In this document: one piece after another, positions 35,478 through 40,878 of the stretch | Position numbering within the stretch: the stretch's first letter is position 1 | Layout: each line of letters starts with the position of its first letter | NCBI GenBank assembly: GCA_014379585.1 | Contig: JACMLN010000117.1 | Span: 1-45,189, forward strand | Length of the DNA stretch: 45,189 nucleotides | Source: Gloeobacterales cyanobacterium ES-bin-313 | Lineage (GTDB): Bacteria; Cyanobacteriota; Cyanobacteriia; Gloeobacterales; Gloeobacteraceae | Reading direction: 5' to 3' | Position numbers and translations under genes: made by a program | The notes under the pieces: generated by a model | Seen by the model: only the letters and a program-made list of their open reading frames with translations | Databases searched by the model: none | Told to the model about the DNA's origin: nothing

Positions 35478-35966
35478 ATGAAAACCCATCAAGAAAACGC
35501 AGAACACAGCCAAGAACAAGAACGCCTTTCGCGCCGCGAAGCACTCAAAGATGCGGCGAAACTTGGTTTGCTGCTCTACTGCGTTCCTCAAGTTCTCAGC
35601 TCAGAAGCTGTGCTTGCCCAAAGTTCTCCCTCCACAACGAGTGCTACATCCAGTGGTGACTCCAGTGGTCTTGCCTACTTGGGACTGCTTCCTCTGGCTG
35701 GTTTACCCTTCCTTGGTGGTGCTGGTGCAGCAGCAGCGGCAGCGGGTGTGGCTCCAGCGGTGGTTCCAGCGACACTTTTTGGTATTCCCTTAGCAAATGC
35801 TAACGTTGCTCCTTTGATTGGCCGCGCCGACAGCCCAGTCTTAGCACCTAGAAATCGGGGTACATTGCCACCACGTCCTTTTAATCGTGCTAGACGCAAT
35901 CGTATTGGCGGTGGTAGCCAAACCCGTGATAGTCGGGTGAAGAGAGCCATTCGCGGACTTGGCTAG
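35478..35966 (+). CDS. Tat-leader, Ala/Gly- and Arg-rich protein; candidate modified precursor
   Basis: 162 residues of no family I recognise. The N-terminus has a twin-arginine-like leader: LSRREALKDAAKLGLLLYC, VPQVLSSEAVLAQ, likely cleaved after VLA (about residue 47). Next is a Ser/Thr linker, a Gly/Ala/Leu-rich hydrophobic stretch (LAYLGLLPLAGLPFLGGAGAAAAAAG), then an Arg/Asn/Pro-rich basic tail ending KRAIRGLG. It is the first gene of a five-gene operon: the next ATG is 3 bp after its stop. The combination of leader and low-complexity core next to a PqqD-like carrier makes it the best candidate substrate of that system. Alternatively it is an exported structural protein. Confidence 0.65.
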   Translation: MKTHQENAEHSQEQERLSRREALKDAAKLGLLLYCVPQVLSSEAVLAQSSPSTTSATSSGDSSGLAYLGLLPLAGLPFLGGAGAAAAAAGVAPAVVPATLFGIPLANANVAPLIGRADSPVLAPRNRGTLPPRPFNRARRNRIGGGSQTRDSRVKRAIRGLG

Positions 35967-35969
35967 GCT

Positions 35970-36587
35970 ATGCGTAGATTTCGCATACGGACTTCGATCC
36001 ACTTATTCTCCAAAGATGATCTTTGGGTTGTGGCTTTGTTTTGTGTGATGCTTTCTGTGGGCTGTATTCCTTGGTTGAGGAGCAGCTTTGTTTCTATTTT
36101 CGATATTTCAGCGTTGGCACTTCCTAAACTCTCATCAGGCATGGCCGTGCCTAAGCTCTCGACGGGAATTAGTAATACCCAGCTATCGAATGATGCCTGG
36201 ATTGAGGTTTCGATCAAAGAGCGCAAGTTGCGCCTGCGAGATCGAGGCAACCAAGTTCTGATGGAAGTTCCGATCGCTGTCGGCAAGCCGACAACGCCCA
36301 CGCCTGTCGGTCAGTTTGAAGTGATGGAGATGATGGAAAACCCGATCTGGCAGAACCCGTTCAACACCCGGACGATCATCGGTGAAAAAGATCCCCACAA
36401 CCCTTTGGGACTGCGCTGGATCGGTTTCAAGCAAGCAGGCGCCAACGACTACGGGATGCACGGCACCTACAACCTGAGTTCCATCGGTCGTCCTGTCACC
36501 AACGGTTGTATTCGGTTGCGCAACGAAGATATCATCGCCTTATTCGATCAAGTTGAAGAAGGAACCCAGATCCTCGTTCATCCATGA
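35970..36587 (+). CDS. L,D-transpeptidase (YkuD family)
   Basis: 205 residues. An N-terminal transmembrane or signal segment (about 18-33, LWVVALFCVMLSVGC) precedes a short repeat (LPKLSSGMAVPKLSTGISN) and the YkuD catalytic domain: WIEVSIKERKLRLRDRG, the catalytic motif from His164 to Cys180 (HGTYNLSSIGRPVTNGC), then IRLRNEDI. Such enzymes form 3-3 peptidoglycan cross-links or attach proteins to peptidoglycan in the periplasm. The catalytic Cys/His are intact. The gene is 3 bp after the Tat-leader gene and its TGA overlaps the PqqD-like start by 4 bp (ATGA), so it is translated as part of the operon. Confidence 0.9.
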   Translation: MRRFRIRTSIHLFSKDDLWVVALFCVMLSVGCIPWLRSSFVSIFDISALALPKLSSGMAVPKLSTGISNTQLSNDAWIEVSIKERKLRLRDRGNQVLMEVPIAVGKPTTPTPVGQFEVMEMMENPIWQNPFNTRTIIGEKDPHNPLGLRWIGFKQAGANDYGMHGTYNLSSIGRPVTNGCIRLRNEDIIALFDQVEEGTQILVHP

Positions 36588-36850
36588 ACCCGATTGCCCG
36601 CCCGGATGTCCTAACACAGCAACTCGCCGATGGTTCGACGATTCTCTTTGATCCACAGACCAGTATTGCCCACGAACTTAATGCAACAGGCGCGCTCATC
36701 TGGGAATACTGTGATGGAGAACATAGTATCGGCGACATTGCTGCTTTACTAAGAGAATGCTTCGATACCCCAACGGTAGAGTGTCAGAAGGATGTGACCC
36801 AGTTTTTGGAGACGCTGCAGCAGCGAGCCCTCCTCAACGCCTCGGTGTAA
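36584..36850 (+). CDS. PqqD-like peptide chaperone (RiPP recognition element)
   Basis: 88 residues with the PqqD fold pattern: an N-terminal RPDVLTQQLADGSTILFDP hairpin, ELNATGALIWEYCDG (the LN-x-T-G-x-x-I-W core) and a helical C-terminal half with IGDIAALLRECFD and VTQFLETLQQRALL. PqqD domains bind the leader of a precursor peptide and hand it to modifying enzymes. The start ATG overlaps the L,D-transpeptidase stop, and the gene overlaps the HprK-like gene that follows. I recall a TIGRFAM class (HPr-rel-A system PqqD-like chaperone) with this context. No radical SAM enzyme is adjacent. Confidence 0.88.
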   Translation: MNPIARPDVLTQQLADGSTILFDPQTSIAHELNATGALIWEYCDGEHSIGDIAALLRECFDTPTVECQKDVTQFLETLQQRALLNASV

Positions 36851-37623
36851 ATATTCTTGGTTTGCCGGCTACAGTCGTCGGCGATCCACAGTGCTTAGGG
36901 CTTCTCAGCAAACTTTTGGCTCCCTTTTCGAGCCGCGCGTTTGCCGATCCTTGTGCCGCTTTTCGGCAATTGAGCGATGGGCGCTATGCGGTCGAAACGG
37001 CGACACTTTGCACATCCGGCACCTGCGAAGCAGTGGCCGACTTTTGTGAGTGGCTACTAGTCACTCAGGCGGCAATCCACTGCGGCGATCACCTGCAACT
37101 CCACGGTGGTGCTGTTCAGCGCGCCGAACAGCTCATCTTGCTCCCTGGGCTTTCCGGCAGTGGCAAGACGACTTTGACCTTGGGCATGATGGCAAGCGGC
37201 TTTTTGCCCCTTACAGACGATCTGATTTTGCTCGATCCTCGCCAAAGCACCGTGCGTCCGTTTGAGCGCTGTTTTCACGTTGATGCCTCTACCCTTACTA
37301 TTGCCAGCGAGCTGGGGCTGAACAAACAATTGATTTTGCCAGAAGCGTTGGCCCAGGGATTTTGTCGTCCAAGGCACTGGGGAGTTTCTGGGGTACCAAC
37401 CTGCATCGTTTTACCTCGCTACTGCCCTGGTGCCAAGCTTGAACTGAACCGTCTACGTCCTGCCCAGGCATGGATTGCCCTTGCCAATCTCTGCATGGTG
37501 ACGGGCAAATCAAGCGTTCATTTTTCAGCCCTGAGCCGTCTTGTCGAGCAAACACCGACCTATCAGATCACTTACGACCATCTATCGCAAGCAGTCGAAA
37601 CGATCATTCAACTGACGCAATGA
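36757..37623 (+). CDS. HprK-related serine kinase-like protein
   Basis: About 288 residues if ATG 36757 is used (94-bp overlap with the PqqD-like gene); GTG 36781 or TTG 36862 are alternatives, and homology-like sequence starts near GVNILGLPATVVG. The kinase core has LHGGAVQRAEQLILLPGLSG and a Walker A GLSGSGKTTLTLGMM, followed by LTDDLILLD, the pattern of HPr kinase-related proteins (HprK-rel-A). It should bind ATP; the phosphorylated substrate is unknown, since no HPr protein is nearby. The stop overlaps the next ATG (ATGA at 37620-37623). Confidence 0.85.
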   Translation: MLRYPNGRVSEGCDPVFGDAAAASPPQRLGVNILGLPATVVGDPQCLGLLSKLLAPFSSRAFADPCAAFRQLSDGRYAVETATLCTSGTCEAVADFCEWLLVTQAAIHCGDHLQLHGGAVQRAEQLILLPGLSGSGKTTLTLGMMASGFLPLTDDLILLDPRQSTVRPFERCFHVDASTLTIASELGLNKQLILPEALAQGFCRPRHWGVSGVPTCIVLPRYCPGAKLELNRLRPAQAWIALANLCMVTGKSSVHFSALSRLVEQTPTYQITYDHLSQAVETIIQLTQ

Positions 37624-38660
37624 ATAAATTACAGGTTGCCGTCGCCCGTTTTCTCAGTTGCCCACCCGCTCTACGGCAGGCACCCCCCGACTTGAGTACC
37701 CTCGATCCACAAGGCTGGCTGGCACTCAACGCCTACCTCACTGAACGCAATCTTGCCCTTGCCGCCTACGAACACTGGATTATGGATAAAGCCGCAGATC
37801 CGGCTCCAGCGGTGCGTACCGATCTGCGCAAAAGCTATATCGCCGCGAGTGCCTGTGTCCAATGGATGCAAAAAGAATTAATCCGCTTACTAAAAGCCTT
37901 TGCGACTGCTCACATCGAGGTGGTTGTCCTCAAAGGGCTGCATCTTGGGACACTGCTTTGGTCCGATCCGGCCCTCCGACCCTTTGGCGATATCGATCTT
38001 TGGGTGCAGCCTGAAGCGATTCCCAGTGCTGATGCTTTGCTCCGACAAATGGGATACCAAGGTGGTCCTGAGAATCTGGCGGCTCCTCTGGACTGGCGAT
38101 ACCATGAACTGCCGAACTACAACTTGGCCAATCACCAACTTCCTTTTGGTGCCGTCGATCTACACTATCGCCTCGCTCCCCAATACCTTGCCGCCGTCAA
38201 TGAAAAAGAAATCTTCGCTCGCGCTATTCCTTGGTGGGCAGGCTCCCATGTTTTGGCTCCAGAAGACCTGATTGTTTACATCACAGGACATGTCGCTCGC
38301 CATCTGTTCGTCGAGACGCGCCCTGCCTTGCTCTACCACGTCGGCTACCGCTACTTAGGTGAACTCGCCCGATTGATCTGTGCCTCGCAGGTGGATTGGT
38401 CACGGGTCGCCCAACAATTCGCGGAGTCGGAACATCGTCGTGCCCTGATCTTGCCTCTACGGATGATCAGGAGCCTTTGGGGAATTGCTTTTCCTCAGGC
38501 AATCACGCAACTCTGGCAAACAGATCTGCTCGGTGAAGCGATTCTGAAGATCATGCTCACCCGCTTCGATCACCCCTGGCAAGCCAGAGAGAACCAAGCT
38601 TTCAGCTTTTGGAATTACGCTTTACCAGATCATATACATCGCTTTGGGCGTAAATTGTGA
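37620..38660 (+). CDS. Nucleotidyltransferase-fold protein (NTP_transf_5 type)
   Basis: 346 residues. The central motif VVLKGLHLGTLLWSDPALRP followed by FGDIDLWV gives the G-x-D-x-D-type metal-binding signature of the uncharacterised nucleotidyltransferase family often found beside PqqD and HprK-like genes. Further on, VDLHYRL and an ITGHVARHLF helix are visible. Predicted cytosolic. ATG 37620 overlaps the stop of the HprK-like gene. The 3' end overlaps the convergent CAP-protein gene by 39 bp. It may modify the PqqD-presented substrate or a cell-envelope sugar; this is inference. Confidence 0.85.
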   Translation: MNKLQVAVARFLSCPPALRQAPPDLSTLDPQGWLALNAYLTERNLALAAYEHWIMDKAADPAPAVRTDLRKSYIAASACVQWMQKELIRLLKAFATAHIEVVVLKGLHLGTLLWSDPALRPFGDIDLWVQPEAIPSADALLRQMGYQGGPENLAAPLDWRYHELPNYNLANHQLPFGAVDLHYRLAPQYLAAVNEKEIFARAIPWWAGSHVLAPEDLIVYITGHVARHLFVETRPALLYHVGYRYLGELARLICASQVDWSRVAQQFAESEHRRALILPLRMIRSLWGIAFPQAITQLWQTDLLGEAILKIMLTRFDHPWQARENQAFSFWNYALPDHIHRFGRKL

Positions 38661-39299
38661 CCTGAACAGCGGACTCTCGGCAGTGTGGTTCAGGCGGGGC
38701 AAGACGGCGGGAGGCGCAGTCAAAACCACGTAGTAGTACATATAAGTACTGTTTGGGTTGCAGGCAATCCCAATCCCCACTTCCGTGTGCGTCCGATACA
38801 GGGGATCCGCCGCAAGCAAGTGGATTCGGTGCTCTATGTCGGGTACCCCTTGATCGATCAAGAGTTGATCCACCGCTTCGACGGCATTGGCAGCACCTGA
38901 AGCGATGGATTCAGTTGTATTCGCTGCGGCGTCGAGGGGGTAGTCCTTCGGTAGACGGTAGCCAGCGTGGACAAGGCGTTGATTGGGGCCAAGACCGTCC
39001 GGGTCTGTGTGAGCGAAGTAGTTATGGCGGGCCATACTCTCTGCTTTTCGACGTGCAACTGCAGCGAGTTGGGGATTCCAATTGAGCGCAGGTGTAGGAG
39101 CAAGATTCGCGCTGCTAAAACTGTTGCGCTGCGCGTAGGCAGTTGGAGCAGAACGCACATGATTGAGATATTCGGCAGCTTGTCTGTCTTGGCCAGAGAG
39201 ATCCGCACATTGTTCGCTGGCAAAGGCAGGCGTTCCTCGAAACAGAGCAATCGATACAAAAAATGCAACGGCTAATCCATTCGGCCACGTTTTAAACAT
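38622..39299 (-). CDS. CAP (SCP/PR1-like) domain protein, secreted
   Basis: 225 residues with a signal peptide (GLAVAFFVSIALFRGTPAFAS). The CAP domain shows AEYLNHVRSAPTAYA, LNWNPQLAAVARRKAESMA, HNYFAHTDPDGLGPNQRL, ESIASG and the conserved HRIHLLAADP, the pattern of bacterial YkwD-like proteins. It is extracytoplasmic; the molecular activity of bacterial CAP proteins is poorly known. TGTGAGG (39310-39304, leftward) overlaps its ribosome site and could pair over 7 bases with Yfr1. Confidence 0.88.
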   Translation of the reverse strand: MFKTWPNGLAVAFFVSIALFRGTPAFASEQCADLSGQDRQAAEYLNHVRSAPTAYAQRNSFSSANLAPTPALNWNPQLAAVARRKAESMARHNYFAHTDPDGLGPNQRLVHAGYRLPKDYPLDAAANTTESIASGAANAVEAVDQLLIDQGVPDIEHRIHLLAADPLYRTHTEVGIGIACNPNSTYMYYYVVLTAPPAVLPRLNHTAESPLFRSQFTPKAMYMIW

Positions 39300-40149: not shown

Positions 40150-40878
40150 TTAGGGTAGTTTCCAAGATTTGCGCATCGTCCGATAGGTAGATTCTGGCAA
40201 TTGGACGAGAACTGGCTTAGCCTCAGGGCGCAACCAACGCAGCAGGCTTTCTAATCGCTGTTGGGCCATGGCTGTGCAACCAGCGGTTGGGGAACTGTCC
40301 GAGCGCCAGACATGCAGAAAAATGCAACTACCTTGACCAGGAATCGGTGGATTTTGGTTGTGGGCAACGACAATCAGCCAACGATAGAGGTCGTCAGGGC
40401 GCTTCATCACCTCGGCAGATTGCCAAACTTCAGGCTGTTCGGGAGAGATAGTGACGATTTGGTTGTATTGGGGAGCCTTGGCATCATCTACACAGCGGTC
40501 TTGTTCCCCAATCGCTTTATAGAACCAACGACTACCTGCGGGCGGCATTTTTGCGTATCCGTAGGCTGTTTCCAATGGATAGATACCTGCGGGGGATCGC
40601 CCATCGCCTTCACGTTTACTGGGTTCGCCACCGCCGGGCGCTGGCACCAAGCCCGAACCCCAACCCAACCCATTGCGACCTAGGACAATCGCCCACGGCG
40701 CACCGACAGGCTGCCAACCGCGTACCGTGCGTTCGTAGCGCTGCAACGTCCCTTTTGGAGCCTGCCAATCGGCGGATCGCACCAGGATCATCTGGGTCGA
40801 TTGCGCTGGAATGACCGGACTTGCCGCCGCAGGTGCAGCAAAGCAGAGCATGAAGAGGAGAAGCAAAAATTGGCGCAT
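40150..40878 (-). CDS. Secreted L,D-transpeptidase-like protein
   Basis: 242 residues with a signal peptide (RQFLLLLFMLCFAAPAAA). The catalytic region reads SCIFLHVWRSDSSPTAGCTAM, with the His-x(n)-Ser-x-x-x-Gly-Cys arrangement of YkuD enzymes, preceded by GWGSGLVPAPGG, EGDGRSPAGIYPL and VAHNQNPP. This is the sub-family with a conserved RSPAG motif. Probably acts on peptidoglycan. It is the second YkuD protein in the window and differs clearly in sequence from the one at 35970. 32 bp separate it from the polA stop, same strand. Confidence 0.87.
   Translation of the reverse strand: MRQFLLLLFMLCFAAPAAASPVIPAQSTQMILVRSADWQAPKGTLQRYERTVRGWQPVGAPWAIVLGRNGLGWGSGLVPAPGGGEPSKREGDGRSPAGIYPLETAYGYAKMPPAGSRWFYKAIGEQDRCVDDAKAPQYNQIVTISPEQPEVWQSAEVMKRPDDLYRWLIVVAHNQNPPIPGQGSCIFLHVWRSDSSPTAGCTAMAQQRLESLLRWLRPEAKPVLVQLPESTYRTMRKSWKLP

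Follow-up and report, generated by a model that had tools for sequence, protein, structure and literature searches.

A five-gene operon of Gloeobacterales resembling linear polyphosphorylated peptide systems, with a Tat-type leader and its own L,D-transpeptidase

Introduction

The linear polyphosphorylated peptides (LPPs) of Bacillota are encoded by lppAKBSDN clusters. Their precursors carry the consensus YxxPxVLxHQxIxFETxxS, in which the Tyr and Pro are required for binding by the recognition element (RRE) of this class of ribosomally synthesized and post-translationally modified peptides (RiPPs) (PMC13381572). The kinase LppK polyphosphorylates Ser3 of the LppA core, position 19 counted from the Tyr, and the leader is removed by a signal-peptidase-like enzyme, LppS (PMC13381572). 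Similar tailoring enzymes occur in lasso-peptide clusters of the paeninodin/pseudomycoidin type, where HprK-like kinases (PadeK, PsmK) with an invariant catalytic His-Lys-Asp-Asp set modify a C-terminal Ser and PsmN adds a hexose to phosphoserine by a route that is unsettled (PMC9266682). A further set, HPr-rel-A (TIGR04352/TIGR04353), combines a PqqD-like protein, an HprK-related kinase and an NTP_transf_5 protein; searching the literature for HPr-rel-A, or for a RiPP with a transpeptidase and PqqD, we found no paper. To our knowledge, RiPPs tailored by HprK-like kinases and nucleotidyltransferases (NTases) have no known function. Here, we describe an operon at positions 35478-38660 (+) of a 45,189-nucleotide stretch (hereafter, the window) from Gloeobacterales cyanobacterium ES-bin-313 (assembly GCA_014379585.1, contig JACMLN010000117.1). 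It encodes a low-complexity protein (g1), an L,D-transpeptidase (Ldt, g2), a PqqD-family RRE (g3), an HprK-related kinase (g4) and an NTP_transf_5 NTase (g5). We favor, at a probability of roughly 0.6 (0.62), the view that these genes form an LPP-like protein-tailoring and export system with a leader of the twin-arginine translocation (Tat) type and a cassette-specific Ldt.

Results

The five genes are adjacent open reading frames (ORFs) on the same strand, with the spacing and family assignments of the sequence-only reading (Table 1). Pfam searches matched g2 to YkuD (E=7e-25), g3 to PqqD (E=4e-19) and g5 to NTP_transf_5 (E=2e-33), and g4 matched HprK_rel_A (E=6e-25) below the NCBIfam cut-off. 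A gap of 3 bp separates g1 from g2, and the g2/g3 and g4/g5 pairs each overlap by 4 bp. These values stand. The 94-bp overlap of g3 and g4 is probably a start-codon artefact: similarity among the kinases begins only at about residue 30-38, leaving some 30 unconserved residues after ATG 36757, and in a homologous locus (L003) kinase start and PqqD stop share 4 bp. The true g4 start therefore probably lies downstream of ATG 36757. No sigma-70 promoter or terminator in the operon region was convincing above chance.

The cassette is all-or-none in the nine Gloeobacterales genomes sampled (G000-G008, with G000 the genome of the window). Four (G000, G002, G004 and G006), spanning three genera and another family, with G000 and G002 in the same family, hold all five genes, and the order g1-Ldt-PqqD-kinase-NTase is identical in each. 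The remaining five (G001, G003, G005, G007 and G008) lack kinase, g1 and PqqD alike, and the single g1 match in G008 was non-significant (E=0.04). The refuting condition set by the sequence-only reading, loss of the 162-residue g1 from loci that keep the other four genes, did not arise: g1 is there in 4/4 carriers and missing in 5/5 non-carriers. Cassette proteins are 39-56% identical, compared with 79-81% for TopA within the family, indicative of fast evolution. The recurrence of the five-gene order with protein identities of only 29-56% is far beyond chance. The cassette tree, ((G000,G004),(G002,G006)) with an approximate likelihood-ratio support of 96.8, agrees with that of TopA, a pattern that fits vertical descent with a loss in the G001/G003/G005 clade. 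Across the phylum, a search of 386 sampled genomes yielded no orthologous cassette, only distant relatives of the kinase, mostly generic P-loop or lasso-type proteins. Scanning genome contigs with g5 as a single protein gave no match, and an alignment-based scan recovered only two metagenome-assembled genomes that were already known. A tblastn search of plasmids returned weak matches only, and the Methylosinus kinase region, the sole one opened, held no comparable cassette. A role in anti-phage defense was considered and rejected; PADLOC gave only a marginal P-loop match.

The leaders of the four g1 homologs align without gaps over 34 residues (window sequence RREALKDAAKLGLLLYCVPQVLSSEAVLAQSSPS), and the invariant columns of this alignment are R1, R2, K6, G12, L15, Y16, P19, L22, S24, V27, A29, Q30 and S34. 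They include a twin-arginine motif, an RRE-binding motif that reads YxxPx[VI]L at the same aligned place in 4/4 leaders, a signal-peptidase-like VxA/Q (the slash marks the predicted cut), and a Ser, Ser52 in the window protein, at the LppK-site spacing in 4/4 leaders. When the first 60 residues of each leader were shuffled, [YW]xxPx[LVI] arose in 0.5-3% of cases. The Tat signal model TIGR01409 scored the window g1 at 19.3 bits, above its cut-off of 16.7, and TatC was found in 9/9 genomes of the order. Cleavage at VxA/Q would leave Gln as the mature N-terminus. Beyond the leader lies a core of ~115-140 residues that is rich in Pro, Gly and Ala (42-51% in three complete sequences). In G006, SPPSD and TPPG repeats break the assembly, so that g1 is divided between two contigs (L044 3-299 (-) and L003 2-376 (+)); the repeat number probably varies, and the NTase of this locus runs off its contig end.

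The PqqD protein has residues that match a pocket for such a leader. g3 aligns gaplessly to LppB (9x8z). In the crystal structure of LppB with LppA, the leader Tyr is bonded by D70, its kink at the Pro is held by N33, and the pockets are lined by L32, F74 and L83. The window protein has the same five residues, none of which varies among the four orthologs. By contrast, the Trp-type PbaB1 has Gln at the D70 position and Gly at the N33 position. Matching pocket residues in LppB, set against this difference, support the prediction that a Tyr-type RRE is paired with a Tyr-type leader. Together with the joint presence and absence of the genes and the RRE-binding motif, the matching pocket strengthens the earlier proposal that g1 is the substrate, which we judge likely on these sequence grounds.

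The tailoring enzymes appear intact. The four catalytic residues of the kinase are invariant across the cassette homologs, as they are in the lasso-tailoring kinases (PMC9266682). An AlphaFold model of the NTase (predicted local distance difference test score, pLDDT, 83) is of the pol-beta type, its nearest folds being the nucleotidyltransferases MenT1, LnuA and ANT(2'')-Ia, with a best E=0.005 that speaks to fold class only. A nucleotide-using modification of g1 before export is plausible.

The Ldt retains the HGT and GC(I/V)R catalytic motif of YkuD domains. Cassette Ldts group together in a separate clade (support 98/98), and cassette-free genomes have only other YkuD proteins. Proteins are mostly joined by Ldts at their N-terminus, which in Ldt-anchored outer membrane proteins (OMPs) is Ala, Gly or Asp, or at a Lys close to the C-terminus (PMC12729407). 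The sequence-only reading suggested that g1 may finally be joined to peptidoglycan by the Ldt. An Lpp-like Lys route is impossible in G004, where mature g1 has no Lys, and the G000 protein has one; Lys attachment is accordingly not predicted to be a shared function of the cassette. N-terminal attachment of g1, or local 3-3 crosslinking or other wall remodeling by the Ldt, is possible. Downstream of the operon lies a convergent gene for a secreted CAP-domain protein, an uncertain member of the cassette; G000 and G004 have two copies of this family apiece, and none of the five cassette-free genomes has it save for a weak and partial match in G008. Another YkuD-like gene (40150-40878 (-)), 1.5 kb downstream, is divergent and falls in a different YkuD group from the cassette Ldt.

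Table 1. Coordinates of the operon, g1 motifs and the convergent neighbor in the window.
Feature	Position	Strand	Remarks
g1, 162-aa low-complexity candidate substrate with Tat-type leader	35478..35966	+	TIGR01409 above cut-off; RRE-binding motif; conserved C-terminus
g1 twin-arginine motif RREALK, residues 19-24	35532..35549	+	RRxxxK invariant 4/4
g1 YCVPQVL, residues 34-40, RRE-binding motif [Y/W]xxPx[L/V/I]	35577..35597	+	Y, P, L invariant 4/4; motif from PMC13381572
g1 VLAQ, residues 45-48, signal-peptidase-like VxA/Q	35610..35621	+	invariant 4/4
g1 Ser52, predicted modification site	35631..35633	+	invariant; position 19 from motif Tyr, the LppK site in LppA (PMC13381572)
g1 basic C-terminus SRVKRAIRGLG	35931..35963	+	conserved; elsewhere RRAIRGLG, KKIVRGLG, KRYIKGLW
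g2, L,D-transpeptidase (YkuD)	35970..36587	+	H164, C180, R182 invariant; cassette-specific clade
g3 (P0003), discrete PqqD-family RRE	36584..36850	+	N33, D70, F74, L83 as in LppB leader pocket
g4, HprK-related kinase	36757..37623	+	H116, K137, D154, D155 invariant
g5, NTP_transf_5 nucleotidyltransferase	37620..38660	+	start 37620, not 37470
CAP-domain secreted protein, uncertain member	38622..39299	-	convergent; in 3/4 cassette genomes, adjoining the cassette in 2

Comparison with described systems places the operon nearest to LPP. Both have a discrete RRE, an HprK-like kinase, an NTP transferase, a linear precursor and no cyclase; the g1 leader has Tyr, Pro, Val/Ile and Leu at the LPP spacing and a Ser at position 19, and leader removal of the signal-peptidase type is predicted for g1 as well. 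The lack of radical SAM or lasso enzymes, the former counted by the sequence-only reading among the marks of an unusual system, is not unique: the LPP family likewise uses an RRE, an HprK-like kinase and an NTP transferase, on linear precursors (PMC13381572). The Gloeobacterales operon differs in lying outside Bacillota, in its twin-arginine motif and dedicated Ldt, and in a long, Pro/Gly/Ala-rich core with a conserved basic C-terminus. With the lasso clusters it shares the His-Lys-Asp-Asp kinase, the NTP transferase and a PqqD-like B1; unlike them it has no macrolactam cyclase or B2 peptidase, its RRE is Tyr-type where that of paeninodin is Trp-type, and g1 has no C-terminal Ser of the kind that PadeK/PsmK-type kinases modify. 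The PqqD-like, HprK-related and NTP_transf_5 set recalls HPr-rel-A, to which the genes had been assigned, yet the NCBIfam thresholds argue against membership: PqqD scored 18.2 bits against a TIGR04353 cut-off of 35 and the kinase 88 against 200 for TIGR04352; g5 exceeded its family threshold (PF14907, 116 bits versus 31.2). Envelope proteins anchored by Ldts (Lpp, OutB, OMPs) resemble g1 in being exported low-complexity or envelope proteins near an L,D-transpeptidase; g1 differs in having no conserved C-terminal Lys, and its attachment is putative. Judged from sequence, the operon would thus work like LPP yet falls outside LPP, HPr-rel-A and the lasso class, the first because it has no LppS or exporter, has an incomplete leader consensus and adds an Ldt and a twin-arginine motif.

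Related arrangements occur elsewhere in the phylum. In two of the 386 genomes (G102 and G371), a PqqD domain, a twin-arginine leader (SRRxVxK...PAMA) and a core that varies (poly-Thr or Cys-rich) are joined in one protein, and the fusion genes adjoin HprK-like kinase and NTP_transf_5 genes. They share with the operon PqqD, the twin-arginine leader, a variable exported core and the kinase and NTase neighbors, and differ in that PqqD is fused to the substrate and in having no YxxP motif and no Ldt. The Asn/Asp of the Tyr pocket are replaced by Thr/Ser and Leu, as expected for a leader that is presented in cis. One such locus (L074 1518-4598 (-)) encodes a fusion with a poly-Thr core, possibly a mucin-like modified protein, beside a prolyl-hydroxylase-like gene and a glycosyltransferase/NTase-like gene, both identified by eye. 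In another (L076 5403-6700 (+)), the cores of two tandem fusions are Cys-rich, and a DoxX/thioredoxin-like gene and NTP_transf_5 come after them. The same cyanobacterium carries an apparent lasso cluster (L075 209-7548 (+)) with B1, B2, cyclase, precursor, kinase, ABC exporter and NTase genes. A further locus (L077 3032-9099) holds two tandem HprK-like kinases beside two divergent NTP_transf_5-like genes, a sulfotransferase-like gene and ABC transporter genes, with no recognized PqqD.

Discussion

From these observations we infer the following biochemical steps. PqqD would grip the g1 precursor by the Tyr-x-x-Pro of its leader and present it to the HprK-like kinase, which would phosphorylate, perhaps polyphosphorylate, the invariant Ser52 in the cytoplasm. 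The NTP_transf_5 enzyme would then place a nucleotide- or sugar-derived group on the Ser52 phosphate. Because the leader has both a twin-arginine motif and VxA/Q, we propose that modified g1 is exported by Tat and cleaved by signal peptidase, which would leave the modified Ser close to the new N-terminus. The cassette-specific Ldt may then act with g1 at the peptidoglycan, in N-terminal anchoring or in local wall remodeling.

Several points weigh against this model. The homologous loci number only four, one of them divided between contigs, and conservation of the g1 motifs is partly due to common descent. The HQ and FET of the LPP consensus HQxIxFET are absent from the g1 leaders, which read SxxVxAQ, and the operon and its immediate neighborhood encode neither an LppS nor an MsbA-like exporter. 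Only the window g1 exceeds the Tat cut-off; the other three leaders have RRxxxK alone. An AlphaFold2 model of a natural PqqD-leader fusion was of low confidence (pLDDT 44.5) and its docking unreadable. In LPP itself, deletion of the NTP transferase LppN had no visible effect (PMC13381572).

The Tat scores, together with the removal of LPP leaders by a signal-peptidase-like enzyme (PMC13381572), raise a real if unlikely possibility that the twin-arginine leader is solely a RiPP leader and not a Tat signal, with g1 leaving the cell otherwise or being cut at the membrane by an SpI-like peptidase in the manner of LppS. The invariance of RRxxxK and VxA/Q, the score of the window g1 and the absence of a linked peptidase or transporter gene argue for Tat. 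A different view takes the Ldt as its starting point: g1 and g2 could be an Lpp-like wall-anchoring pair, with g1 covalently on peptidoglycan and PqqD, kinase and NTase merely regulating or decorating it. The Ldt adjoins g1 in 4/4 loci and belongs to a cassette-specific clade, both Lys and the N-terminus serve as points of Ldt anchoring (PMC12729407), and the g1 C-terminus is basic and conserved. Set against this are a Lys route that is not general and a predicted N-terminal Gln in place of the Ala, Gly or Asp of anchored OMPs (PMC12729407), and we consider such a pair unlikely.

Since sequence cannot reveal enzyme targets, PqqD, kinase and NTase might instead serve another peptide or a small molecule, g1 and the Ldt being an independent envelope pair that shares the promoter. 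This is improbable given that the RRE motif lies in g1, that g1 either occurs with the PqqD gene or is missing along with it in 9/9 genomes, that fusions of PqqD to twin-arginine leaders exist, and that short ORFs upstream of the operon have no RRE motif and the intergenic spaces leave no room for a second precursor. Decay of a lasso cluster through loss of cyclase and leader peptidase, already disfavored, is very improbable. PqqD, HprK-like kinase and NTP_transf_5 genes do tailor paeninodin-type clusters (PMC9266682), and an apparent lasso cluster with such genes exists in another cyanobacterium (L075). Yet none of the four loci has a cyclase or B2 gene, no B2 domain was found anywhere in G000, the five genes are intact across 39-56% identity, and the core is of low complexity and ~115-140 residues long.

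The LPP-like tailoring and export model yields single-residue predictions: Y34, P37 and S52 of g1 and D70 of PqqD. In its boldest form, which we regard as rather doubtful, one leader would serve both as a handle for the RRE and as a signal for Tat, and a protein of 115-140 residues would be phosphorylated and capped in the cytoplasm, exported and built covalently, by its new N-terminus, into peptidoglycan by a dedicated Ldt; if so, a RiPP-type pathway would make a wall-bound structural protein and not a diffusible peptide. If the LPP-like model is true, linear phosphopeptide-type pathways would reach beyond Bacillota, and an RRE motif would be embedded in an export signal. A tailoring set tied to a wall enzyme and an exported protein, and apparently inherited vertically in the deepest cyanobacterial order, suggests a role in the envelope and not as an antibiotic.

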